A stretch of 37,727 nucleotides of DNA from Paracoccaceae bacterium (GTDB taxonomy: Bacteria > Pseudomonadota > Alphaproteobacteria > Rhodobacterales > Rhodobacteraceae), in NCBI GenBank assembly GCA_007118295.1, contig SKRW01000038.1, positions 1-37,727 on the forward strand. Direction: 5' to 3'. Below are positions 354 to 13,021 of this stretch, one piece after another. Each line of letters begins with the position of its first letter. Within the stretch, counting starts at the first letter, position 1. A program made the translations under genes and the position numbers. The notes beneath the pieces are model-generated. The model was not told where the DNA came from. It saw only the letters and a program-made list of their open reading frames with translations, and made no database searches.

Positions 354-934
354 CAGAATCGCTCCATTTCGGTGGTGACGCGGGCAAGAAAACCAGCGCG
401 CTGCGCATCGCGCGCGCGGTTCATGTCATAAAGCGCCAGATAGCGCAATTTCTCTGGCCGTGTCACATGCCACAGCGCACGTTTCACCACATGGCGCGGC
501 GGATCGCCTCCCAGAAGCGCGCGCATCCGCGTGCCGCCATAAGTGGTGACTGCCGCCAGCTTGCGGATATGGGTCAGGTTCGGGTGCACCTTGCCCCCTT
601 CCAGCCGGAACGACACGCCGGGCAGAAAGACCCGGTCGAAGAACCCCTTGAGGATGGCGGGATAGCCGAAATTCCACACGGGAAACACCAGCACCAGTGC
701 CTGCGCGGCCTGTAGACGCTTGACATACCCCTGCACAGGCGCGGTATTGGCGCCGACATCGTGATAGCTGCGCCGCTCGGCCTCGGTCAACACGGGCGAG
801 AAGCCCTCGGCATTCAGGTCGCAATCATCCACCTCCCATCCGCGCGCGGTCAGGCTGTGCACCACGCGGGCATGCAGCGCGGCAGAGAAACTCTCCGGGC
901 ACGGATGGGCAAAGAGGACCAGCGCGCGTGTCAT
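353..934 (-). CDS. NAD(P)H-quinone reductase-like flavodoxin-fold protein
   Basis: This is a complete 193-aa member of the NQO1/MdaB/KefF flavodoxin-like family. The N-terminal VLFAHPCPESFSAAL binds flavin phosphate. VFPVWNFGYPAILKGFFDRV is the conserved WxxP-type segment, and VTTYGGT is the following flavin-contact loop. The usual family length is about 180-200 aa. It should be a cytosolic flavoprotein that transfers electrons from NAD(P)H to a quinone or other acceptor. The start overlaps the stop of the FAD-linked oxidoreductase by 4 bp (ATGA), and the stop overlaps the start of a second paralogue, so the genes are translationally coupled. In this operon the pair may recycle electrons or reduce a pathway intermediate; that is inference. 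Confidence 0.85.
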   Translation of the reverse strand: MTRALVLFAHPCPESFSAALHARVVHSLTARGWEVDDCDLNAEGFSPVLTEAERRSYHDVGANTAPVQGYVKRLQAAQALVLVFPVWNFGYPAILKGFFDRVFLPGVSFRLEGGKVHPNLTHIRKLAAVTTYGGTRMRALLGGDPPRHVVKRALWHVTRPEKLRYLALYDMNRARDAQRAGFLARVTTEMERF

Positions 935-2331
935 TCGGCAGCCGTTTTGCCGGGATATTCATAGATGCGGTCAAACGCCCAGTTCGGCTTGTCCCATGCG
1001 ATCATCTTGCCGGGATTGAGCAGTCCCTTGGGGTCGGCCTCGCGCTTGAAGGTCAGTTGGCGGTCGTCGACGGTCTGGCGCCCGCCTTCTTCCAGCGTGA
1101 AACGATGCGGGTTGAAGATCATGCAACCTGCGTCCTCATGCATCCGCACGATCTCGTCAAGCCGTTCCTCGGTCGTGAATTTGACCAGCGACAACCCCGC
1201 GTACATGACCTTGCCATTCTCGCGGATGACTTCCAGATGCTGCAGCACCTCGGGCGAGAGGGCGGCGCGCATCGCCTGCACCTTCGCGATATGGTCCGGG
1301 TAGCCGTAGCGCACCTGCAGATAGGTGATGCTTGGGTCCACCTTCAGCGCGCGCAGGGTCGTGTGGTTCCAGCCATATTCAAACACATGGCCCGGATCAC
1401 GCGGCCAGTCATGGGCGTTGGACTGGTAGATCACGCGCGCCGCCGGGCGGCGGGCTGTGAAGGTGTTGAACCCGTCCATCGACTGCGGCGCGACCATCAG
1501 CCCCACCAGATGCGTGCCCGCCTCCACATGGGGGGCGACGCGCTGGAAATAGGCATGCGCGGTTGGCGCTTCATACACGGAAGCGATCTTGATCAGGATG
1601 CCGTCCTGATTGGCAAGTTCCTCGGTATACCGGATTGCAGTGTCGAAATCGTCAAAGGCCACGAACAGACCCACCCAGTCATAGGCGGGTGCCAGCGGCA
1701 TTTCCAGTTCGGTGATGATGCCGTTCGTGCCATAGGCGTGACTGACGCGCGCCAGTTCCTCGCCCCGGAAGTCCAGCACGCGCGGGGTTTCTTCCATCGT
1801 CACTACGCGCAGGCGGATGATGTTGCCCAGATCGCGCAGACTGCCCCATGTGCAGGACCCGACCCCGCCAGATCCGCCAGCGACAAAACCGCCGATGGTC
1901 GCGGTCGCCCATGTGCTGGAAAACATGCGCAACTCCTGACCCGAATGCGCCTTGCAGGCGGCATCCACATCCTTGAGCAGGCAGCCCGGTTCCACGATCA
2001 CGCGACCAGGATGCACCTCTTTGACCGATGCCATGTTCTTCATATGCAGGATGCAGCCGCCCGCCATTGGCATCGCCTGCCCGTAATTGCCCGTCCCGGC
2101 CCCGCGTGTGGTCACGGGCACATCATGCGCGTGGCAGGTTTTCAGCACCTCTATCACTTCGGCCTCGTTGCGGGGCGCGACCACGAAATCGCCTTCGAGA
2201 TGGTCCATGCGGGCCTTGAGGACGGGCGAATACCAGAAGAAATCGCGCGATTTGGCGCGGATGGAGACGGGATTTTCGTCTAGTTCCAGATGCGACATGG
2301 CCGCTTTGGCGGCAGCGAGGTTGGTGGTCAT
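931..2331 (-). CDS. FAD-binding oxidoreductase of the GlcD/FAD_binding_4 (PCMH) type
   Basis: The 466-aa protein has a PCMH-type FAD domain in its N-terminal half. After residue 50 comes DFVVAPRNEAEVIEVL, then the pyrophosphate-binding segment RGAGTGNYGQAMPMAGG, and a second FAD loop GGFVAGGSGGVGSCTWG near residue 170. The C-terminal half ends with a short conserved segment (GLLNPGKMI) that is standard in GlcD, D-lactate dehydrogenase and related oxidases. Members oxidise hydroxy acids, alcohols or amines with FAD; the substrate here is not evident. The start overlaps the amidohydrolase stop by ATGA and the stop overlaps the quinone reductase start. It probably acts on the product of the amidohydrolase in the same catabolic pathway, which is inference from the operon. 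Confidence 0.85.
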   Translation of the reverse strand: MTTNLAAAKAAMSHLELDENPVSIRAKSRDFFWYSPVLKARMDHLEGDFVVAPRNEAEVIEVLKTCHAHDVPVTTRGAGTGNYGQAMPMAGGCILHMKNMASVKEVHPGRVIVEPGCLLKDVDAACKAHSGQELRMFSSTWATATIGGFVAGGSGGVGSCTWGSLRDLGNIIRLRVVTMEETPRVLDFRGEELARVSHAYGTNGIITELEMPLAPAYDWVGLFVAFDDFDTAIRYTEELANQDGILIKIASVYEAPTAHAYFQRVAPHVEAGTHLVGLMVAPQSMDGFNTFTARRPAARVIYQSNAHDWPRDPGHVFEYGWNHTTLRALKVDPSITYLQVRYGYPDHIAKVQAMRAALSPEVLQHLEVIRENGKVMYAGLSLVKFTTEERLDEIVRMHEDAGCMIFNPHRFTLEEGGRQTVDDRQLTFKREADPKGLLNPGKMIAWDKPNWAFDRIYEYPGKTAAE

Positions 2332-3602
2332 GGTGTCCTCATCAGATGGTCAAGCTCGGCATAGTCAGGCAGGCGGCGGTCAATCACGTGGCCTGCACGC
2401 AAGACGATTCGGTCGGATTGGGGACGCGCAAACAACTCGCCCCAGCCGCGTGCGCGTATGATGACCAGATCCGCAGGCGCACCGGCCACAAATCCGGGCG
2501 GGCCAAAGCCGCAGGCGCGGGCGGGATTGGTAAGGAACGCATGGACCCAGTCCTCGCCGGAATGGTCCAGATGCGCGATGCGGGTCGCTTCGCGCATGAC
2601 CTCGACCATATCCAGATCGCCATACGCATAGAACGGGTCGCGCGTGTTGTCAGACGCAAAGCTGACATTGATCCCGCACGCCTTCATCTCGTGCACCAGC
2701 GTGACCCCGCGCCAGCGCGGGGTGCGGTTGGGGATGCGGTCCTGCAGATACATGTTGCACATCGGCAGGGACACGATGTTGAGGCCCGCCTTTGCCACCA
2801 GATCAAGCGTGTCCATCGCCTCGGCTTCTGGTTGCACTGCCAATGAACAGCAATGACCCACGGTGATCGGTCGCGCAAAGCCTGTCTCCAGGGCAATCTC
2901 GGCAATCGCGCGCAGGGTTGCGGCGCTTGGGTCGCCGGTTTCATCGGCATGGAAATCGAGTTCCAGCCCGCGGTCTTTCGCCAGACCGAACAGGGCGCGC
3001 AAGCGGTCATGCAACCCATCGACCGGATAGGTGACCATGCCAAGAACGCCGCCGTGATCTGCGACGATATCGGCAGTGCGGACATAATAGCCCGTCAGGT
3101 CTGCGCGGTCGATCCCGGCCAGCGATGACCCTTGCAGCGTAATGTGCCCGGCCCATTTGTCGCGCAACTGGGCAAAGACCGGCCAGGAAATGCTATCTTG
3201 CGGCGCAATGCTGTCGATATGGGTGCGGATTGCGCGCGTGCCGTGCGCGTAGGCGCAGCGCAGGGCAAAATCCATACGCGCGTGGACATCCTCTGCGGTC
3301 CAGTTGGCCTCGCGGTCCGCTGCGACCGTGTCGAGCGCGCCGGGGAAGCTGCCATCAGGATTGGCCGCGCGGGGCCAGATATGGCCCTTGTCGAGGTGCG
3401 TATGCATATCGACGAAACACGGCAGCACCAGTGCGCCAGCCATATCGATTGCGGGCACATCCGTCCGGCCGCTGATCTGGCCCGCGTCGATGGTCAGCGC
3501 GTGGCGCATCAGCCCGCCGGGCTGGCCCAGCAGGCACGCGGGCACCGTGATATTTTCCAGCCGGAACGGGCCAGTTGTGGGCAGGGTCTGAAAACCCATC
3601 AT
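2328..3602 (-). CDS. CodA-like amidohydrolase (cytosine/creatinine-type deaminase family)
   Basis: The 424-aa length matches the cytosine deaminase family (about 425 aa). Metal-dependent amidohydrolase motifs occur in order: VDMHTHLDKGHIW (HxH), DFHADETGD (HxxE), GHCCSLA, and FASDNTRDPF with the catalytic aspartate. E. coli CodA has a Trp after the DP pair where this protein has Phe, so the ring substrate may differ. The expected reaction is hydrolytic deamination or ring opening of a pyrimidine-like or cyclic amidine compound in the cytosol. The start is an ATGATG overlapping the permease stop, and the stop overlaps the FAD oxidoreductase start. Co-transcription with an NMT1/THI5-type importer suggests that the imported compound is its substrate. 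It is not claimed to be true CodA. Confidence 0.85.
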   Translation of the reverse strand: MMGFQTLPTTGPFRLENITVPACLLGQPGGLMRHALTIDAGQISGRTDVPAIDMAGALVLPCFVDMHTHLDKGHIWPRAANPDGSFPGALDTVAADREANWTAEDVHARMDFALRCAYAHGTRAIRTHIDSIAPQDSISWPVFAQLRDKWAGHITLQGSSLAGIDRADLTGYYVRTADIVADHGGVLGMVTYPVDGLHDRLRALFGLAKDRGLELDFHADETGDPSAATLRAIAEIALETGFARPITVGHCCSLAVQPEAEAMDTLDLVAKAGLNIVSLPMCNMYLQDRIPNRTPRWRGVTLVHEMKACGINVSFASDNTRDPFYAYGDLDMVEVMREATRIAHLDHSGEDWVHAFLTNPARACGFGPPGFVAGAPADLVIIRARGWGELFARPQSDRIVLRAGHVIDRRLPDYAELDHLMRTP

Positions 3603-4447
3603 GTCTCTCGCTTCAGCGCGCTTTCATGCCATTTGCGCAGAAGCATGTGACTTAGGAAAGAGAGCCCCGCGAAGATCACCACCCCTGTCATGGCGATCAG
3701 GATCAGCGCTGCGAACATGCGCGGGATGTTTAGGCGGTAGCCCGCCTCCAGGATACGAAATGCGAGACCAGAACCGATCCCGCCGGTTCCGGCCACGTAT
3801 TCCGCCACCACAGCCCCGATCAGCGCCAGCCCGCCCGCGATCCGCAAGCCGCCCAGAAAATAGGGCAGGGCCGAGGGCAGGCGCAGGTAGCGCAGAGTCT
3901 GCCAGCGGGTCGCGCCATAAATGCGGAACAGGTCGCGCAGGTTGTGATCGGCTGAGTTCAGCCCCAGCGTCGTGTTGGCAAGAATGGGAAAGAAGGCGAC
4001 CAGCCACGCGCAGATCAGCAGGCCCGCCGTGCGACTGTCGACATAGATGAAGATCAGGGGAGCGATAGAAACGACCGGCGTGACCTGCAGGATCACTGCA
4101 TAGGGGTAGAAGGACATCTCGACCAACCGGCTTTGCGTGAACAGAACCGCGAGCCCCACGCCCCCGATGACGGCAACTGCCAGCGCCATCATCGTGATCT
4201 GCAACGTGACCAGCAATGCGTCGAACAGCATCGGCCAGTCCTTGATCAGCGTTTCCAGCACCAGACCGGGGCGCGGCAGGATGAAATGCGGGATCTCGTT
4301 CCACACGACCAGTCGGTCCCAGAACCAGATCATGGCGATCATCACTGCGACAGGCAGCAGCCATTTGCCAAACCGCTCAAACCGTGCCGCGCGCTGGCGG
4401 CGCAGGTCTTCGGCATCGAACAGCGGAGTGTTCTCTGCAACGCTCAT
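3599..4447 (-). CDS. ABC transporter permease (SsuC/TauC/ThiX-type)
   Basis: This is an inner-membrane permease of the binding-protein-dependent superfamily, 282 aa from the chosen start. The ORF track extends 16 residues upstream. The ATG at 4447 is preferred because it overlaps the ATPase stop as ATGA and gives a standard cytosolic N-terminus (MSVAENTPLF). About six hydrophobic segments are visible. The EAA loop that contacts the ATPase is recognisable around LFRIYGATRWQTLRYLRLP. It should form the channel for the substrate delivered by the binding protein encoded two genes upstream. The family handles nitrate, sulfonate, taurine, pyrimidine precursors and related small molecules; specificity cannot be read from the permease. 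Confidence 0.9.
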   Translation of the reverse strand: MSVAENTPLFDAEDLRRQRAARFERFGKWLLPVAVMIAMIWFWDRLVVWNEIPHFILPRPGLVLETLIKDWPMLFDALLVTLQITMMALAVAVIGGVGLAVLFTQSRLVEMSFYPYAVILQVTPVVSIAPLIFIYVDSRTAGLLICAWLVAFFPILANTTLGLNSADHNLRDLFRIYGATRWQTLRYLRLPSALPYFLGGLRIAGGLALIGAVVAEYVAGTGGIGSGLAFRILEAGYRLNIPRMFAALILIAMTGVVIFAGLSFLSHMLLRKWHESALKRET

Positions 4448-5223
4448 GCAGGTTCTCCCATCGCGATATGCAAGGCTTCGGACGCCTCGCGGCACAGGGC
4501 GGCATATTCGGCAGAGGTGCGGAAAGCTTCGCTGCGTGGATATGGGGCGTCTACGGTCACTTCGCGGATCACCCGCCCCGGACGCGCCGCCATGACCACA
4601 ATCCGGTCCGACAGAAAGACAGATTCGAACACCGAATGCGTGACAAAGATGACGGTGCAGCCGATCTTGGCCTTGAGTTGCAACAGGTCATTGTTCAGCC
4701 GGAAGCGCGTGATCTCATCAAGCGCGGCAAAAGGTTCATCCATCAGAATCAGGCGTGGTTTGGTGACCATCGAGCGGGCGATGGATACGCGCATTTTCAT
4801 GCCGCCAGAGAGTTCACGGGGGTAGGCGTCAAGAAATTTTTCCAGCCCGACCAGTCGCAACACATCAAGGATCTCGTCCTTGACCGAGGCGTAGCTCTGC
4901 CCGCGCAAACGAAACGGCAGCCAGACATTCTGCGCCACGGTTGCCCATGGCATCAGCGTTGGTTCCTGAAAGACGACGCCCAGATCGTTCTGGGATTGCC
5001 CGCCCGCCCAGTTGATCCGGCCCGAACTGGTGGAAGTCAGCCCCGCGATCAGGCGCAGCGCCGTCGATTTGCCGCAACCGGACGGCCCGAGAAGCGAGAT
5101 GAAATCGCCTTCGTTTACGGACAGGGTCATATTTCGGAGCGCCACCACATCACCATTGAAGGTCTTGGTGACATTGCTCATTTCCAGCACAGGGGGGCGT
5201 TGCCCAAGGCGCTTGGTTTCCAT
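4444..5223 (-). CDS. ABC transporter ATP-binding protein (SsuB/TauB-type)
   Basis: The 259-aa nucleotide-binding subunit has Walker A GPSGCGKST near residue 46, a Q-loop at VFQEPTLMPW, the signature LSGGMKMRVSIARS, and Walker B LILMDEPFAALDE followed by the switch histidine in VIFVTHSV. This is the usual full length. It energises import by the neighbouring permease from the cytosolic side of the membrane. The 4-bp ATGA overlap with the permease implies coupled translation. It is separated by about 63 bp from the binding-protein gene upstream; that gap holds no gene and no obvious strong terminator. Confidence 0.93.
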   Translation of the reverse strand: METKRLGQRPPVLEMSNVTKTFNGDVVALRNMTLSVNEGDFISLLGPSGCGKSTALRLIAGLTSTSSGRINWAGGQSQNDLGVVFQEPTLMPWATVAQNVWLPFRLRGQSYASVKDEILDVLRLVGLEKFLDAYPRELSGGMKMRVSIARSMVTKPRLILMDEPFAALDEITRFRLNNDLLQLKAKIGCTVIFVTHSVFESVFLSDRIVVMAARPGRVIREVTVDAPYPRSEAFRTSAEYAALCREASEALHIAMGEPA

Positions 5224-5286
5224 TGTCGTTATGGTCCCGTCATCATGTCAGGGGCGCTGGCTTGCGCCCCCGAAGGAATTTCTGAC

Positions 5287-6282
5287 TCAGTCAGCGGGAC
5301 GCAGATCCAGCCCCAGCCCCTGATTGACAAAGCTGGTATTGTTCGCCGTGGACCAGTCCAGACCGCTCTCGACAACGCCGGAGTCCACCATGGAGGTGTA
5401 GAATTCTTCGACGGCGGCTTCAGTCATGGCGCCGACGCCCATCTCCAGTGCATCGCCGCTATCCACAATGCCGTTCTCGATCATCATCGAGATTGCAAAA
5501 TCGATCTTGTCCTGTGTCATGTCGGGGTTCGCCTCAAGGATCATCGCATTGGCAGCGGCATTGTCACCATAGAGGTAGTTATACCACCCAAGGATCGAGC
5601 CGTTGACGAAACACTCCACCACCTCGGGCCTGTTGTCGATCGTGCTCTGCATGACTTCGACTGTGGTCGCATAGGTCGAATAACCAGCATCCGCGATCAG
5701 AAAGACATTCGGCATAAAGCCTGCTTCGCTCTGGATGGCGTAGGGTTCTGATGACAGGAAACCCTGCATGCCCTTGCGCTTGTCCGCCAGAAACGGGGCA
5801 GGGTTGAAGGTATAGGGCTCACGCTGTTCGACAGTGAAACCATGCGCGGCGATCATCCACTGATAGTAAGACGTGAAGCCATTGTCACCGATCAGAAGCG
5901 TCAGGTCCTTCAACTCTTCCCAGCTATCGGCCTCGCCGGGATGCGAGATGATAACTTGCGGGTGCTTCTGAAAGGTCGCCATCACCGCGACAACCGGGAT
6001 ATTCTCGGCCACGGCATTGAAGGCTTGCAACAGATCACCGCCCATATGGAACTGGATGCGGTCCGCCATCATCAGCGCTCGGTTGTTCACCTGCGGTCCA
6101 CCCGAAACGATGGTCACATCCAGCCCGCATTCGGCATAGGTGCCATCGGCAACGGATTGATAGAACCCGCCATGTTCGGCCTGTGGCAGCCAGTTGGTTC
6201 CGAATGTGACAGGGGTCAGGGCGACAGCCGCAGTGGCCGTGGCAAAGAGCGCAGTGGCAGACAGCGCAGCAGGTTTCAACAT
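5287..6282 (-). CDS. ABC transporter substrate-binding protein, NMT1/THI5-like
   Basis: The ORF track runs 119 codons too far upstream. The start at 6282 gives MLKPAALSATALFATATAAVA, a clear Sec signal peptide with cleavage probably near ATAAVA-LT, and it has GGAG about 8 bp upstream. The mature part (331 aa in all) opens with VTFGTNWLPQAEHGGFY, which is typical of the NMT1/THI5 cluster of periplasmic binding proteins, and contains VSGGPQVNNRALM. There is no lipobox cysteine, so it should be a soluble periplasmic protein. It is the first gene of the operon ABC importer-amidohydrolase-FAD oxidoreductase-quinone reductases. Family members bind pyrimidine precursors, taurine, nitrate and others; the ligand is unknown. 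Confidence 0.88.
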   Translation of the reverse strand: MLKPAALSATALFATATAAVALTPVTFGTNWLPQAEHGGFYQSVADGTYAECGLDVTIVSGGPQVNNRALMMADRIQFHMGGDLLQAFNAVAENIPVVAVMATFQKHPQVIISHPGEADSWEELKDLTLLIGDNGFTSYYQWMIAAHGFTVEQREPYTFNPAPFLADKRKGMQGFLSSEPYAIQSEAGFMPNVFLIADAGYSTYATTVEVMQSTIDNRPEVVECFVNGSILGWYNYLYGDNAAANAMILEANPDMTQDKIDFAISMMIENGIVDSGDALEMGVGAMTEAAVEEFYTSMVDSGVVESGLDWSTANNTSFVNQGLGLDLRPAD

Positions 6283-6523
6283 GAGGAGCACTCCGAGGCA
6301 AAAGGATGACCAAGGGTTAAAATCCGCTGGGGCAGAGTCATTCGTATTCTGATCACGGCAAATGGGGCGGGCCGATACTGATCGAATTATGAGCACTCGA
6401 TGCAGCAGGTGCACGAAATAATCGGAGTTTTGCGCTGCGCTCAGCAGTTGACGCGCCCTGCAGAAGTTTAACCGGACTGAATCAGGCAAAAGCTCTGTTG
6501 TCACCATTCTGAAAGCAAATGCC
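6283..6523. promoter_or_regulatory. Divergent intergenic region between binding-protein gene and RidA gene
   Basis: About 240 bp separate the divergent starts and must contain both promoters. I see short inverted arms ATCGA/TCGAT with an 11-nt spacer near 6380-6404 but no convincing sigma-70 box pair. No reading frame here looks coding; the upstream extension of the minus-strand ORF through this region lacks family homology and carries no ribosome binding site. Confidence 0.5.
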
Positions 6524-6925
6524 ATGAAAGCCCTCTCACCCCCTGAACTGCCCGAACCTTTTGCGCGGTATTCGCATGGCATCGTCACATCTGTGACGGG
6601 ACAGTTGATTGTCACCTCCGGGCAATTGGCGATGCGCACGGACGGGACTATCCCGACAGGCGCGCAGGCACAGGCCGAACTGTGCTTTGCCTATATCGAC
6701 GCCATTCTTGCGCAGGCCGGGGCGGGGCGGGGCGGTATCCTGCGGGTGAACGCCTTTGTGACGGACCGGGAGCATATGGCAGGCTACATGGCGGCGCGCG
6801 ATACCTTCTTTGCGGATGTGTTGCCGCCGCCAGCCTCTACCCTGATGATCGTGGGCGGTTTCACGCGGCCCGAATTCGTGGTCGAGGTTGAAGCCCTAGC
6901 GATCCGGACGCCGATCATTGGATGA
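6524..6925 (+). CDS. RidA/YjgF/UK114-family protein
   Basis: The 133-aa sequence has the full RidA fold. The segment near residue 30 (IVTSGQLAMRTDGTIP) matches the substrate-pocket entrance, VNAFVTDREHMAGY follows in the middle, and PPASTLMIVGGFTRPEFVVEVEALA is the C-terminal core. The arginine normally contacting the imine carboxylate (RxxV in classical RidA) is replaced in this region by STLMIVGGF, so it may belong to a non-archetypal RidA subgroup. RidA proteins hydrolyse reactive enamine/imine intermediates, and subgroup members often sit in amino-compound breakdown operons, which fits the neighbouring deaminase and amine-oxidase genes. The start follows a weak Shine-Dalgarno. It ends 16 bp before the convergent GlxA-type regulator gene. 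Confidence 0.85.
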   Translation: MKALSPPELPEPFARYSHGIVTSVTGQLIVTSGQLAMRTDGTIPTGAQAQAELCFAYIDAILAQAGAGRGGILRVNAFVTDREHMAGYMAARDTFFADVLPPPASTLMIVGGFTRPEFVVEVEALAIRTPIIG

Positions 6926-6941: not shown

Positions 6942-7925
6942 TCAGTCAGCGCCCATGTCTGCAAGGGCGGCGCTTGCGCGCCGGTCATTGCGGGGGCTGG
7001 TCGCATAGCGCCTTCTGTAAGCGTTCGAGAGATGCGCCGCATCGCCGAATCCGGTCGCCTCGGCGATGGCCGCAATCGACATGGCGCTGCGGCGCATCAG
7101 TCCGCGCGCGACCTCCAGCCGCATGTCCCGGTAGTAGGTCATCGTGCTGTGCCCCAGTGCGCGCCTGAACAGCCGGTTCAGGTGTCGGGGCGATACGCTT
7201 GCGATCAGCGCAATCTGCGGTAGCGTCAACGGGTCTGCGATATGGGTCTCCATCGCGGCGACAGCTTCGAGTATCTGGGGCGAAGAGTTCCCCAGCCGTT
7301 CGGCCAATCCGCTGCGCTGCGGCGCACTTGCGGCGCGGATATCGGTATGCAGAAACCAGTCGCTGACCTCGCGCGCGAAAGGGCTGCCATGCTGCGATGC
7401 GATCAGCGCATGCATAAGGTCAAGCGGGGCCGTGCCTCCGCCGCAGGTCACGCGGTCGCGGTCGATCACGAACAAGCGCTTTTCGATCAGCAATTCCGGG
7501 TAGCACTCTGCCAGTTCAGCGGCATGTTCCCAATGGACTGTCATGCGCCTGTCGCGCATCAACCCGGCGCGCGCCAGAATGACAGAGCCGCCCGAAACGC
7601 CCCCCAGCCGCACGCCGCTGCGGTCCATTCGCGCCAGACGGTCGAACACATCCGGATCGGCAAAGACAAAGGGGTTGCCACCTGCGACGACAAGCAAAAG
7701 GTCCAGTGAGGTGGCTGCCGCGAAGGGTTGCACTGGTGGCACCGCGCAGCCCCCGGAAGAGTGCACGTCAGGCCCGGTTGCAAGATGGGTCAGGTGATAC
7801 AAATTCCGCCCTGACAGCAGATTGGCCGCGCGCAAGGGCTCGACCACGCAGGCATAGGACAACAGCGCAAACCCTTCGATGGGCAGCACACCGATGCGAT
7901 AAGGCACGGATTCTGTCCGTTTCAT
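6942..7925 (-). CDS. GlxA-family transcriptional regulator (DJ-1/PfpI-like domain plus AraC HTH)
   Basis: The N-terminal half (about residues 8-190) is a DJ-1/PfpI-like domain (YRIGVLPIEGFALLSYACVVEPLRAAN). The position of the usual nucleophile reads GGVSGGSVILARAGL, so Cys is replaced by Ser; the domain is then more likely a ligand sensor than an enzyme. The C-terminal half is an AraC-type double HTH (LPQIALIASVSPRHLNRLFR and IAAIAEATGFGDAAHLSNAY). Proteins of this build include the carnitine, glycine-betaine and sarcosine sensors CdhR, GbdR and SouR. The ATG at 7925 (327 aa) is preferred to the one at 7964, which lies inside a palindrome that looks like an operator. It is divergent from the sarcosine-oxidase-like operon and probably controls it. 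Confidence 0.88.
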   Translation of the reverse strand: MKRTESVPYRIGVLPIEGFALLSYACVVEPLRAANLLSGRNLYHLTHLATGPDVHSSGGCAVPPVQPFAAATSLDLLLVVAGGNPFVFADPDVFDRLARMDRSGVRLGGVSGGSVILARAGLMRDRRMTVHWEHAAELAECYPELLIEKRLFVIDRDRVTCGGGTAPLDLMHALIASQHGSPFAREVSDWFLHTDIRAASAPQRSGLAERLGNSSPQILEAVAAMETHIADPLTLPQIALIASVSPRHLNRLFRRALGHSTMTYYRDMRLEVARGLMRRSAMSIAAIAEATGFGDAAHLSNAYRRRYATSPRNDRRASAALADMGAD

Positions 7926-7960
7926 GCAATAGAAGGTCCATAATCTGCATGTCCTGTCAG

Positions 7961-7978
7961 TCATATCGCGCGATATGA
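7961..7978. promoter_or_regulatory. 18-bp perfect palindrome, candidate operator
   Basis: TCATATCGCGCGATATGA reads the same on both strands. It sits between the divergent GlxA-type regulator and soxB-like genes, about 32 bp before the chosen soxB start. AraC-family proteins usually bind direct repeats, so the bound protein could be a different dimeric regulator. Confidence 0.55.
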
Positions 7979-8009: not shown

Positions 8010-9260
8010 ATGCAATATTCGGCATGGCGTATCTTTACCCAAGCCCTGAAGGGCAATAGCGGCTGGAAACCTGTCTGGCGCGACCCTGACCCAAAGCCTG
8101 AATACGACATCGTCATCATTGGTGGCGGGGGGCACGGATTGGCGACAGCCTATTACCTGTCAAAGGTCTTTGGACAACACAAGGTTGCCGTGCTGGAAAA
8201 AGGCTGGATCGGGTCGGGCAATGTCGGGCGGAATACGACCATTATCCGCTCGAACTACCTGCTGGACGGCAACCAGCCCTTTTACGAATTTTCGATGAAG
8301 CTCTGGGAGGGGCTTGAACAGGATTTCAATTATAACGCCATGGTCAGCCAGCGCGGCGTTCTGAACCTGTTTCATTCGGACGCGCAGCGGGATGCCTATG
8401 TGCGGCGTGGCAACGCGATGCTGATGTCGGGTGCGGATGCTGTGTTGCTGGACCGCGCGCGTTTGCGCGCGATGTGTCCATTTCTTGATTTCGACAATGC
8501 CCGCTTTCCCATCCATGGCGCGCTATGGCAGCCGCGCGCGGGAACCGTGCGCCACGATGCGGTGGCATGGGGTTATGCACGCGGCGCAGACCAGAACGGG
8601 GTCGATATTGTCCAGAATTGCGAAGTCACGGGCCTGCTGGTGCAAAATGGCCGTTGCGATGGGGTCGAGACCACACGCGGTACGATCCGTGCGAAAAAGG
8701 TGGCGGTCTGCGTGGCCGGTTCGTCCAGCCGCGTCATGGCGATGGCCGGACTGCGCCTGCCAATCGAGAGTCACGTCTTGCAGGCTTTTGTCAGCGAGGG
8801 GCTGAAGCCGGTCATCCCCGGTGTCATCACCTTTGGCGCAGGTCACTTCTATGTCAGCCAGTCGAACAAGGGCGGGCTGGTTTTCGGGGGCGATATCGAT
8901 GGCTACAACAGCTACGCGCAGCGCGGGAACATGGCCACGGTCGAAGACGTCTGCGAGGGGGGCATGGGCATCATGCCTATGATCGGTCGCGCCCGTCTTT
9001 TGCGGATGTGGGGGGGCATCATGGACATGTCCATGGATGGCTCGCCTTTCATTGACCGCACGCCTATTGACGGGCTCTATTTCAATGGGGGCTGGTGCTA
9101 TGGCGGTTTCAAGGCGACACCCGCTTCGGGCTACTGCTACGCGCATCTGTTGGCCAGGGATGCGCCGCATGAGGTTGCGCGGGCCTACCGGCTGGACCGG
9201 TTCGCGCGCGGGGCACCGATTGACGAAAAAGGGGTGGGCGCGCAGCCCAACCTGCATTGA
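8010..9260 (+). CDS. soxB: Sarcosine oxidase-like subunit beta
   Basis: This FAD-dependent subunit of a heterotetrameric sarcosine-oxidase-type enzyme is 416 aa from the ATG at 8010, which is preferred for its AGGG Shine-Dalgarno and for the family-typical MQYSAWRIFTQALKGN opening. YDIVIIGGGGHGLATAYYL (about residue 32) binds FAD. AGTVRHDAVAWGYA contains a histidine near residue 182 that matches the covalent FMN attachment site of the family. WGGIMDMSMDGSPFI and GGWCYGGFKATPASG are the C-terminal FAD and active-site regions. The family oxidises N-methyl groups of sarcosine or related amines to formaldehyde or 5,10-methylene-THF. It is the first gene of a B-D-A-G operon; the substrate is not proven because the operon lacks the usual glyA/purU partners. 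Confidence 0.9.
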   Translation: MQYSAWRIFTQALKGNSGWKPVWRDPDPKPEYDIVIIGGGGHGLATAYYLSKVFGQHKVAVLEKGWIGSGNVGRNTTIIRSNYLLDGNQPFYEFSMKLWEGLEQDFNYNAMVSQRGVLNLFHSDAQRDAYVRRGNAMLMSGADAVLLDRARLRAMCPFLDFDNARFPIHGALWQPRAGTVRHDAVAWGYARGADQNGVDIVQNCEVTGLLVQNGRCDGVETTRGTIRAKKVAVCVAGSSSRVMAMAGLRLPIESHVLQAFVSEGLKPVIPGVITFGAGHFYVSQSNKGGLVFGGDIDGYNSYAQRGNMATVEDVCEGGMGIMPMIGRARLLRMWGGIMDMSMDGSPFIDRTPIDGLYFNGGWCYGGFKATPASGYCYAHLLARDAPHEVARAYRLDRFARGAPIDEKGVGAQPNLH

Positions 9261-9274
9261 CCAGAGGGTAAACG

Positions 9275-9562
9275 ATGATCATCAACCACCCCCTTCTTGG
9301 TCCGCGTGACGCAGCGGAGTTTATCTACAAGGGAGATGCCAGCCTGATTGACCGCCCCGATGGCATGGCAGAGGGGGCGCTCGCGGCATTTGACGCGTAT
9401 CTGCACCTGCGCGACAACCCCGCGGGTCTGCACCGCGAATTGTGGTATCACGAACAGGGTGATCGGTCGTGGCTGGTCGTGACCCGCAACACGCTGACGC
9501 ACGAGATCACAAGGGTGGAGTTGGCACGCGATGTGGCACGCGCACAGGGGAGGGGGCGATGA
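9275..9562 (+). CDS. soxD: Sarcosine oxidase-like subunit delta lacking zinc-ligand cysteines
   Basis: The 95-aa protein aligns along its whole length with SoxD: MIINHPLLGPRDAAEF matches the canonical start that normally holds a CPxCG motif, and LWYHEQGDRSW matches the WxHxxGCxxW motif. In the Stenotrophomonas enzyme, zinc is held by Cys6, Cys9, His59 and Cys63. Here those positions read His, Leu, His59 and Asp63, so three of four ligands are gone while the surrounding fold residues are kept. There is no stop or frameshift, and the start has an AGAGGG Shine-Dalgarno 12 bp after soxB. The stop overlaps the soxA-like start (ATGA). It is probably a functional structural subunit without zinc, or with a different metal. 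Confidence 0.85.
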   Translation: MIINHPLLGPRDAAEFIYKGDASLIDRPDGMAEGALAAFDAYLHLRDNPAGLHRELWYHEQGDRSWLVVTRNTLTHEITRVELARDVARAQGRGR

Positions 9563-12462
9563 CCCAGCCCTTCCGGCTGTCCGGTGGCCAGATTGACCGC
9601 TCGCGCCTTGTCAGGTTTCAGTGGAATGACCGCTGGATGAGTGGACACCCCGGCGATACGCTTGCCTCGGCGCTGATGGCGAACGGGGTGCGCTTGGTGG
9701 GCCGGTCGTTCAAGTATCATCGCCCGCGCGGTATCTTCTCGGCGGGCACGGAAGAGCCCAATGCGCTGGTGCAATTGCGCAAGGGGGCTGCACAGGAACC
9801 CAACACACGCGCGACGACGGTTGAGTTGTTCGATGGCCTTTATGCCACCAGCCAGAACCATCGCGGGTCACTGGAATGGGATCTTCTGGCGATCAACGAC
9901 CTGCTTGCACCGCTGCTTTCGGCGGGGTTCTACTACAAGACGTTCATGTGGCCCGCAAAGCTGTGGGAAAAGCTGTATGAACCTGCAATCCGGTCGGCTG
10001 CAGGGCTGGGTCGCCTGTCGGAACGGCCTGACCCGGATTGCTATGTCCACGGGTTTCTGCATTGCGATCTGTTGGTGATCGGTGGCGGCCCTGCCGGGCT
10101 TGCAGCCGCTCTGGCTGCCGGGCGCGCGGGGCTGCGGGTGATCGTCGCGGATGAGGATTTCCGCCTGGGTGGGCGGCTGAATTCGGATCGGGAAGAAGTC
10201 GATGGCCAGCCCGGCACAGACTGGGCAAAGGCTGCCGTGGCCGAGCTGATTGCGATGCCGCGCGTGCGGGTGATGCCCCGATCCACGGTCTTTGGCGCTT
10301 TCGACCATGGTATCTATGGCGCGCTGGAACGCATGACAGACCATCTGCGGCAGTCTGATGGCAAGCCGCGGCAAGTGGCGTGGCGGATCTATGCCAAGCG
10401 CGCACTGCTCGCGGCAGGGGCCACCGAGCGCGCCATTGCCTTTGGCAATAACGACCGACCGGGTATCATGCTTGCAGGCGCGGTGCGCAGCTATGTCAAC
10501 CGCTTCGGGGCTGCCCCCGGCAGGCGCGTCGCCGTGTTTGCCAACAATGACGATGGGCTGCGCACAGCCGATGATCTGCGCGCGGCAGGGATAGAGGTTG
10601 CCAGCGTTCTGGACGCGCGCACAGGGGCTGCGATTGTCGATACGCGCGGACGCAAGGCGCTGCGTCAGATCATTCTTGCCGATGGCACGCGGATCGATGC
10701 GGATTGTCTGGCGGTTTCGGGCGGTTGGTCGCCGAATGTGCACCTGACCTGCCACCAGCGCGGGCGTCCGGTCTGGTCCGACCGGATCAGCGGGTTTGTG
10801 CCGGGTGGCGTGTTGCCGCCGGGGCTGTCGGTGACCGGGGCCGCGAATGGGACGATGACCCTTGGTGCCGCCCTGCGCGAAGGCCATGTCGAGGGGTCAC
10901 GTCTTGCGGCAGAACTGGGGCAGCGGCCCGCAAAGGGTGGGCCCCCAGTAGCGGCGGATGCCTCTTTTGCGGTGACTCCCATCTGGCATGTTGGCGCTTC
11001 CCGCGCGCGGTCATGGGTCGATTTGCAAAATGATGTCACAACCAAGGATGTGACACAGGCATATCAGGAAGGGTTCCGCGCGGTCGAACATGTCAAGCGC
11101 TATACGACGCTTGGCATGGCGACGGATCAGGGGCGGACCTCTGGCCTGCTGGGGTTGGGGGTGCTGGCTGACTTGTCCGGCAAACCTGTTGCCGAGATCG
11201 GAACAACCATGTTCCGCCCACCCTATACGCCTGTTGCTATCGGCGCATTCGCTGGCCGTGCGCGAGGTAAGGCGTATCGCGCGACCCGCCTGACACCGTC
11301 GCATGACTGGGCAACCGAGACTGGCGCCAGTTTCACCGAAGCAGGGCTGTGGATGCGTGCGCAGTGGTTCGCGCGCGACGGCGAGGCGGGCTGGCGCGAC
11401 TCGGTAGATCGCGAAGTGATGATGACGCGGCGCTCGGTCGGGGTTTGCGATGTCTCGACTTTGGGCAAGATCGACATTCAGGGACGCGATTCTGCCGAAT
11501 TCCTGAACCGCGTCTATGCCAATGCGTTCCTCAAGCTGCCCGTCGGACGTGTGCGCTATGGTCTGATGCTGCGCGAGGATGGCTTTGTCTATGATGACGG
11601 CACCACCGCGCGGCTGGCGCAGACGCATTTCGTCATGACAACGACGACCGCGAATGCCGCAGGCGTGCTGCGTCATCTGGAATTTGCGCGTCAATGCCTG
11701 TGGCCGGATCTGGATGTCCATTTGATCTCGACGACCGACTCCTGGGCGCAGTTCGCAGTGGCAGGACCGAACGCGCGGGCGCTGGTGTCGCGCGTGGTCG
11801 ATGATCTGGACCTGTCGAACGATGCATTTCCGTTCATGGCCTGCGCGGAATGCACTGTGTTTGGCGGCACGCCCGCGCGGCTGTTCCGTATATCGTTCTC
11901 GGGCGAACTGGCTTACGAGGTCGCTGTCCCTGCACGCTTTGGCGATGCCATGATGCGGGCGCTGATGCAGGTTGGCGCGGCCTTTGATGCAGTCGCATAT
12001 GGTGTCGAGGCACTTGGTGTGATGCGCATCGAGAAAGGACATGCCGCAGGCGGAGAGTTGAACGGTCAGACCACGGCGCGCATGCTGGGTCTGGGCGCGA
12101 TGGTTTCGGACAGGAAGGATGCGATTGGCGGTACGCTGTCGCGCCGCCCTGAAATGCAGGCCGAAGCTGGTCTGCGTCTGATGGGCTTTCGACCAGTGGA
12201 CCGCACGCAAAACCTGATGGCGGGCGCGCATTTTCTGACACAGGGTGCCGCTACGGATACGGCGCATGATCAGGGCTGGCTGAGTTCGGTAGCCTGGTCG
12301 CCCGAGCTGGGCCATTCGATCGGGCTGGGGTTCCTGCTGAATGGCGAGAACCGGCTGGGCGAGAGGCTTCGTGCCTATAACCCTTTGCGGGGTCAGGATA
12401 TTCTGGTCGAAGTTTGTTCGCCCCATCATCTCGATCCTGAAGGAGTGCGGCAACGTGGATGA
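9559..12462 (+). CDS. soxA: Sarcosine oxidase-like subunit alpha
   Basis: The start at 9559 overlaps the soxD-like stop as ATGA, giving 967 aa, the usual alpha-subunit length; the ORF track begins 30 codons too early. Order of parts: a 2Fe-2S-ferredoxin-like fold at residues 1-110 (GRSFKYHRPRGIFSAG), a dinucleotide-binding domain at about 155-480 (LLVIGGGPAGLAAALAAGRAG), and a GcvT-like tetrahydrofolate aminomethyltransferase domain in the last 400 residues (SVGVCDVSTLGKIDIQG, then GVEALGVMRIEKGH). In this family the alpha subunit binds NAD+ and folate and receives the methylene group through a tunnel from the beta active site. This supports a tetrahydrofolate-linked demethylating oxidase. 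Confidence 0.92.
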   Translation: MTQPFRLSGGQIDRSRLVRFQWNDRWMSGHPGDTLASALMANGVRLVGRSFKYHRPRGIFSAGTEEPNALVQLRKGAAQEPNTRATTVELFDGLYATSQNHRGSLEWDLLAINDLLAPLLSAGFYYKTFMWPAKLWEKLYEPAIRSAAGLGRLSERPDPDCYVHGFLHCDLLVIGGGPAGLAAALAAGRAGLRVIVADEDFRLGGRLNSDREEVDGQPGTDWAKAAVAELIAMPRVRVMPRSTVFGAFDHGIYGALERMTDHLRQSDGKPRQVAWRIYAKRALLAAGATERAIAFGNNDRPGIMLAGAVRSYVNRFGAAPGRRVAVFANNDDGLRTADDLRAAGIEVASVLDARTGAAIVDTRGRKALRQIILADGTRIDADCLAVSGGWSPNVHLTCHQRGRPVWSDRISGFVPGGVLPPGLSVTGAANGTMTLGAALREGHVEGSRLAAELGQRPAKGGPPVAADASFAVTPIWHVGASRARSWVDLQNDVTTKDVTQAYQEGFRAVEHVKRYTTLGMATDQGRTSGLLGLGVLADLSGKPVAEIGTTMFRPPYTPVAIGAFAGRARGKAYRATRLTPSHDWATETGASFTEAGLWMRAQWFARDGEAGWRDSVDREVMMTRRSVGVCDVSTLGKIDIQGRDSAEFLNRVYANAFLKLPVGRVRYGLMLREDGFVYDDGTTARLAQTHFVMTTTTANAAGVLRHLEFARQCLWPDLDVHLISTTDSWAQFAVAGPNARALVSRVVDDLDLSNDAFPFMACAECTVFGGTPARLFRISFSGELAYEVAVPARFGDAMMRALMQVGAAFDAVAYGVEALGVMRIEKGHAAGGELNGQTTARMLGLGAMVSDRKDAIGGTLSRRPEMQAEAGLRLMGFRPVDRTQNLMAGAHFLTQGAATDTAHDQGWLSSVAWSPELGHSIGLGFLLNGENRLGERLRAYNPLRGQDILVEVCSPHHLDPEGVRQRG

Positions 12463-13021
12463 GAACCGTTTGCAGGCCAAAGCGCCGCTTGGCGGGCGCG
12501 ACAGGCAGATCGGGCGTGCACGTTTGCGCGAAAGAGATGAGCTTTCACTGGTTTCGCTAGCGATCCCTCTGGGCGGCGAGGCTGAACTCGGTGATGCGCT
12601 GAAACAGGCGTATGGGCTTGATATGCCTGACCCCCGGCGCGGTCGCTGCAAAGGTGATATATGGGCCTTGCGAACAGGCCATGATCAGATGCTGCTGATC
12701 TTTCCGCACCCGACCCCGGATGCGGGTGTTCATGTCAACGCAAGGTTGAGCACTCGCGCTTATGTGACCGATCAGACCGATGGTTGGGTCAAGCTGTTGC
12801 TTTCGGGAGCGGCTGGTCTTGATGCACTGGAGCGCCTTTGTCCGCTTGATCTGGAGCTTGCCGCCTTCCCGGTCGGGGCTTCGGCGCGCACGGTGATGGA
12901 ACATCTGGGCGTGATCCTGCTGCGGCTGGAGCAGGACCGCTTTCTGCTGCTTTCGGCGCGGTCCTCGGCAGAATCGTTCTGGGACGCAGTCGCGATGTCT
13001 TGCGAATTTGTCGTCGATTGA
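12455..13021 (+). CDS. soxG: Sarcosine oxidase-like subunit gamma
   Basis: The ORF track extends upstream, but the likely start is the GTG at 12455. It has AAGGAG about 9 bp upstream and overlaps the alpha-subunit stop by 8 bp, giving 188 aa (family about 200). The sequence shows the diverged gamma-subunit pattern: a conserved N-terminal LQAKAPLGG, the middle VTDQTDGWVKLLLSGAAGLD, and the C-terminal VILLRLEQDRFLLLSARSSAESFWD. Gamma resembles a piece of the GcvT fold and packs against alpha in the heterotetramer. It is the last gene of the operon; about 150 bp without any gene follow before galU. Confidence 0.85.
   Translation: MDENRLQAKAPLGGRDRQIGRARLRERDELSLVSLAIPLGGEAELGDALKQAYGLDMPDPRRGRCKGDIWALRTGHDQMLLIFPHPTPDAGVHVNARLSTRAYVTDQTDGWVKLLLSGAAGLDALERLCPLDLELAAFPVGASARTVMEHLGVILLRLEQDRFLLLSARSSAESFWDAVAMSCEFVVD

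Follow-up and report, generated by a model that had tools for sequence, protein, structure and literature searches.

Organization of the locus

The window, i.e., the whole stretch of 37,727 nucleotides that was analysed, contains a four-gene operon coding for subunits of the SoxB, SoxD, SoxA and SoxG families (Table 1). The beta-subunit reading frame is open from GTG 7989 and its homologues start at ATG 8010; with numbering from 7989, the FMN-linking His (H189) and the catalytic Lys (K375) are retained, and the motif GWCYGGFK, of the N-methylglutamate (NMG) dehydrogenase type, is present. The delta-subunit gene starts 14 bases past the beta-subunit stop, with AGAGGG about 8 nt upstream of its ATG, and ends in an ATGA overlap with the start of the alpha-subunit gene (soxA) at 9559. 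The gamma subunit probably starts with a GTG at 12455, which has GGAG upstream and overlaps the end of mgdC. The soxG and soxD NCBIfam matches are below the cut-offs yet specific; for soxD the score is 79.5 bits against a cut-off of 116.5, as expected for a diverged subfamily.

Table 1. Genes of the operon and the divergent regulator (mgd names correspond to the probable assignment discussed in the text).
Feature	Position	Strand	Evidence
GlxA/AraC-family activator, TmaR/GbdR-like, divergent from mgdA	6942..7964	-	HTH_18 and DJ-1_PfpI; GbdR model 256 bits
mgdA / soxB-family beta subunit	8010..9260	+	TIGR01373 678.8 bits; 2gag_B E 6.5e-132
mgdB / soxD-family delta subunit, 95 aa	9275..9562	+	PF04267; 2gag_D fold match; zinc positions His5, Leu8, His59, Asp63
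mgdC / soxA-family alpha subunit	9559..12462	+	TIGR01372 1271 bits; Pfam Fer2_4, NAD/FAD, SO_alpha_A3 and GCV_T (folate) domains
mgdD / soxG-family gamma subunit	12455..13021	+	TIGR01375 75.8 bits, under the cut-off of 144

The operon is flanked upstream by a transporter/amidohydrolase operon with RidA, and downstream by other genes. The upstream operon (931-6925) is divergent and comprises an NMT1/THI5-type ABC transporter and a RidA gene, as well as two genes named from sequence, for a cytosine-deaminase-like amidohydrolase and for an FAD-linked oxidase. These genes look like a set for uptake and breakdown of a heterocyclic base, probably unrelated to the mgd operon; they were set aside as a clue to the substrate since they probably form a separate operon. 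The genes gmaS-mgsABC do not adjoin the operon of the window; direct linkage is common in mgd operons, not required.

The delta subunit and its altered zinc site

The delta reading frame matches PF04267 with 97.8 bits over residues 2-82. Its best solved relative is 2gag_D, followed by 1vrq_D, and these are its sole significant relatives of known structure. Alignment with 2GAG gives Cys6->His5, Cys9->Leu8, His59->His59 and Cys63->Asp63 for the zinc ligands, i.e., CPNCG became HPLLG and HAAGC became HEQGD. The protein has the fold and the family membership of SoxD and lacks the ligand set Cys, Cys, His, Cys of the 2GAG type. The sequence-only reading had described a SoxD-family protein with three zinc ligands replaced and His59 kept, in an intact gene with a soxA overlap and a ribosome site, and the alignment, the ATGA overlap and the AGAGGG motif agree with it.

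The fold was modelled with alignment-based AlphaFold (mean pLDDT 83); a single-sequence model (pLDDT 49) was set aside. The predicted fold has a TM score of 0.70 to 2gag_D and 1vrq_D, with no other significant match (Foldseek, 2gag_D, E 2.5e-5). In the prediction the fold is independent of the cysteines, and it says nothing on metal content. Delta would be a small structural subunit with its fold kept. Against 13 orthologues, dN is 0.12-0.20 and dS is above 1 or saturated, thus the gene is under strong purifying selection. H5, L8, H59 and D63 are invariant in 30/30 aligned delta orthologues; in the same alignment Arg64 is invariant and Arg11 near-invariant.

Probably the site has lost its metal, Leu8 packing into the core and Asp63 pairing with a basic neighbour (Arg64, Arg11). 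The label "zinc-free" must be used with caution because His5, His59 and Asp63 are all invariant potential metal ligands. His, His and Asp form the classic 2-His-1-carboxylate set. It is thus conceivable, though unlikely, that the Cys3His structural zinc site became a His-His-Asp site binding a different metal, or binding zinc more weakly. If true, an enzyme of the methylamine pathway would have a metal-dependent property absent from the CCHC forms.

Distribution and single origin of the altered ligand set

The comparison covered 206 distinct delta sequences, three loci (two distinct sequences) being cut by contig ends. Over all loci compared, the ligand string is HLHD at 171 loci (143 distinct sequences), CCHC at 61 (60 distinct, including 2GAG) and HCHD at one. 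Chance or an oddity of a single genome is ruled out, HLHD being identical in 143 distinct sequences. The HCHD locus (L074), which keeps the second cysteine, branches at the base of the clade or outside it, where an intermediate would be expected.

Among 199 genomes of the family, 61 have a delta gene that shares 64% identity or more with that of the window. It was read directly in about 36 of these genomes, the remainder being classed by identity, and the ligand cysteines are missing in all of those read, save one Cys in L074. There is a clear identity gap: the next delta forms are at most 59% identical, and the 13 such loci that were read have CPxCG and His...GCxxW. The Cys-less set is found in Rhodobacterales, Rhizobiales (Mesorhizobium, Hoeflea, Methyloligella), Ferruginivarius and one gammaproteobacterial MAG. 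A further operon, close to that of Mameliella, is in a record named Enemella evansiae, an actinobacterium (L193, JAFKDC010000009.1); this record is likely mislabelled or contaminated.

The ligand residues sit in the delta gene, so that trees of the beta and alpha subunits are independent of them. In the beta (SoxB) tree, the Cys-less operons form one group (55/55; support 82/94; present in 83% of bootstrap trees), nested in a wider group of Cys-type operons of Hyphomicrobiales. A larger, quick beta tree puts 127 of 128 Cys-less rows together, the exception being a long branch (L052). In the alpha (SoxA) tree the 41 HLHD rows are all in one group, with support 99, and the place of L074 is unresolved. 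All roots are midpoint roots, for drawing. Since the HLHD forms are one clade in both trees, the ligand change happened once, and scattered cysteine losses among ordinary sarcosine oxidases are ruled out; the mapping of ligands on a homologue tree, proposed earlier as a check, gives clustered and not scattered Cys-less forms. One alphaproteobacterial mgd lineage would have undergone Cys6->His, Cys63->Asp and Cys9->Leu, once. The delta signature HPLLG / HExGDRSW is a clean marker of one large operon lineage, and not a proof of substrate.

It should be noted that most of the family's Cys-type sister operons (L056-L068) occupy a fixed chromosomal place by dnaG and rpoD, Tad pilus genes and a gene like that of glutamate dehydrogenase.

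Relation to N-methylglutamate dehydrogenase

The operon of the window is probably mgdABCD, i.e., the NMG dehydrogenase that catalyses the final step of the indirect methylamine pathway; this assignment rests on comparison of sequences and gene contexts. The clade is anchored by the mgdABCD genes published for Paracoccus aminophilus pAMI6 (PMC4543880): the mgdA of this plasmid (L259) falls inside the Cys-less clade, and the delta subunit encoded with it reads HPLLG...HEQGD. Moreover, the authors of a SAR11 analysis had earlier put forward NMG dehydrogenase as the product of operons annotated soxBDAG (PMC3160333).

Operon order and subunit families are the same in the window, in P. aminophilus JCM 7686 (pAMI6) and in Ruegeria pomeroyi DSS-3 (SPO1585-1588). 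The delta subunit is Cys-less as in the window, as read directly for P. aminophilus alone, and both known operons have an upstream GlxA/AraC-type regulator, as in the window, where the regulator is kept at the same place in many members of the subclade. In R. pomeroyi the AraC-type activator TmaR directly precedes mgdABCD and drives its expression, and attempts to delete mgdABCD in this species were unsuccessful (PMC13390433). The positional likeness of the regulator gene of the window to TmaR is a lead, and not a proof of orthology. The operon of the window differs in belonging to the sister subclade of that of P. aminophilus, and in being unlinked to gmaS-mgsABC or dmmDABC.

Shared gene neighbours of the Cys-less forms, another of the earlier proposed checks, were found: gmaS, mgs (mgsABC) or dmm (dmmDABC) genes are in the examined flanks of 35 of the 80 named Cys-less loci (the best 80), against 0/13 for Cys-type sister loci. 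Among the 199 family genomes, 44 have both gmaS and the Cys-less delta, 17 the delta only, 18 gmaS only and 120 neither (Fisher p 4e-16, a value not corrected for kinship). On the other side, 18 of the 62 gmaS-bearing genomes are without a Cys-less operon, and some members of the clade are in genomes without gmaS, so that not all need be NMG dehydrogenases.

The genome of the window (G000) contains XRE-mgsABC-gmaS on contig C312, at the end of which gmaS is cut, the remainder lying on C177. The identity of its gmaS, mgsB and mgsC is 79-88%. No second Cys-less operon was found in this genome, which has four further SoxD paralogues, all Cys-type. One of them, on C316 (L072), falls in a sister group and shares a large part of the beta signature, so that the NMG dehydrogenase of this genome could be this paralogue instead.

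In the methylamine pathway GmaS makes gamma-glutamylmethylamide, which MgsABC converts to NMG. MgdABCD would oxidise NMG at the flavin of the beta subunit, the methyl group would pass to tetrahydrofolate in the GCV_T domain of the alpha subunit, and glutamate would be released.

The subclade of the window and the question of another substrate

Of the two Cys-less subclades, the window belongs to the smaller one (support 100/97 in the beta tree and 100 in the alpha tree). It is rather unlikely that the operons of this subclade code for a dehydrogenase of another N-methylated (or N-alkylated) amino acid, akin to NMG dehydrogenase but distinct from it, the NMG dehydrogenase of the genome being another paralogue. 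The occurrence of gmaS in the subclade is patchy: it is present in 11/18 named genomes and 4/9 family-sample genomes, and missing in 7/18 and 5/9, respectively. Some of the gmaS-less genomes carry instead a diverged module, GS-like and MgsABC-like, in a few cases close to the operon, and its FMN glutamate-synthase-like protein is about 52% identical to MgsC. Where it lies near operons of the subclade (L149 13981-20282, L157, L171; also G721, G080, G1172), this module has a 511-aa GS-like enzyme, a class II amidotransferase, a GXGXG protein and a GntR regulator. Possibly the module constitutes an uncharacterised pathway of N-alkylglutamate that runs parallel to GmaS-MgsABC.

Two more observations go in the same direction. 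Firstly, in two genomes of the same genus as the window, G410:C112 (L251) and G469:C15 (L252), the Cys-less operon is from the other subclade (in L251, dmm and XRE genes are nearby), thus the operon of the window may be the result of exchange or of differential retention. Secondly, the Cys-less operons of the Phaeobacter, Ruegeria TM1040 and Aliiroseovarius branch (L084 8722-19875, L085, L095, L050, L054) sit with AraC, LysR, aldehyde dehydrogenase and dipeptidase genes, and in some cases BCCT genes. Several genomes with an operon of the L084 type are without gmaS, and the substrate of this branch may differ. In Shinella (L096) the context is like that of this branch, but the operon is Cys-type.

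An argument against another substrate is that gmaS occurs in Methyloligella sp. GL2 (complete chromosome), L214, G756 and G173, whose only SoxD operon is of the window type and therefore the only candidate NMG dehydrogenase there; among the examined members of the subclade, L214 alone has the operon directly beside gmaS-mgsABC. The genome of the window has gmaS-mgsABC and no other Cys-less operon. Because of the patchy gmaS and the diverged modules, function may vary within the subclade, and the assignment of the window to NMG dehydrogenase is held at probable.

Zinc site and active site

The FMN-linking His and the catalytic Lys are retained in 86/86 beta subunits. However, the canonical sarcosine oxidases and the Cys-less group each have a fixed residue, but not the same one, at 17 beta columns, which include the change of GWGTGGFK to GWCYGGFK beside the catalytic lysine; we infer that these columns determine the substrate. 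The four-subunit sarcosine oxidases (TSOX) of Stenotrophomonas (2GAG) and Corynebacterium U-96 (1VRQ) have in common with the window the four subunits, both catalytic residues and the delta fold (as predicted for the window), and differ from it in this loop and in the zinc ligands (C, C, H, C in TSOX; H, L, H, D in the window).

That the operon codes for an ordinary sarcosine oxidase, acting in the glycine-betaine route and with a delta subunit drifted at the zinc site, is thus very improbable. Automatic annotation names all these proteins "sarcosine oxidase", the gene order BDAG is the same and the beta subunit is clearly homologous to 2gag_B; nevertheless, the 17 columns, the published mgdABCD that anchors the clade, the links of the clade to gmaS, mgs and dmm genes, and a signature identical in 143 distinct sequences, to which drift is ill-fitted, all stand against it. 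As for a decaying delta subunit in an operon losing its function, the replacement of three of the four structural ligands would suggest it, but the dN and dS values rule it out and the replaced residues are invariant, the predicted fold is kept and the operon is intact, so that it can practically be discarded, as the sequence-only reading had already held decay to be unlikely.

The Cys-type mgd operons make it possible to separate the zinc site from the substrate. At each of the 17 beta columns they have the residue that prevails in the Cys-less group. The operons of Aminobacter SR38 (L090), Rhizobium leguminosarum (L091) and Methylobacterium DM1 (L087), all Hyphomicrobiales, have the same beta signature as the window and, unlike it, a delta subunit that keeps all four ligands (CPxCG...H...GC); those of L090 and L091 are directly beside gmaS-mgsABC. 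Since the beta signature is common to Cys-type and Cys-less mgd operons, the change of the active site would have come first and that of delta later, in one branch. With the change of substrate older than the change of ligands, neither would have caused the other, and zinc loss as the cause of the new substrate is ruled out by the very existence of Cys-type mgd operons. The earlier suggestion of a distinct subtype with another substrate is therefore to be divided: (i) the operon most likely oxidises NMG, as suggested by its clade and the links to gmaS-mgs; (ii) the missing zinc site defines neither the subtype nor the substrate.

Significance

Although the enzyme was known before from other members, the replacement of the delta ligands throughout the clade seems undescribed, no description of the altered site having been found in the literature searched. 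Abundant marine bacteria use NMG dehydrogenase to process methylamines, but in databases the enzyme is labelled sarcosine oxidase. The case is also a warning that a lost metal site should not be read as a change of substrate. Finally, since closely related enzymes of this pathway occur both with the cysteines and without them, the lineage constitutes a natural experiment on what the structural zinc does in the sarcosine oxidase family.
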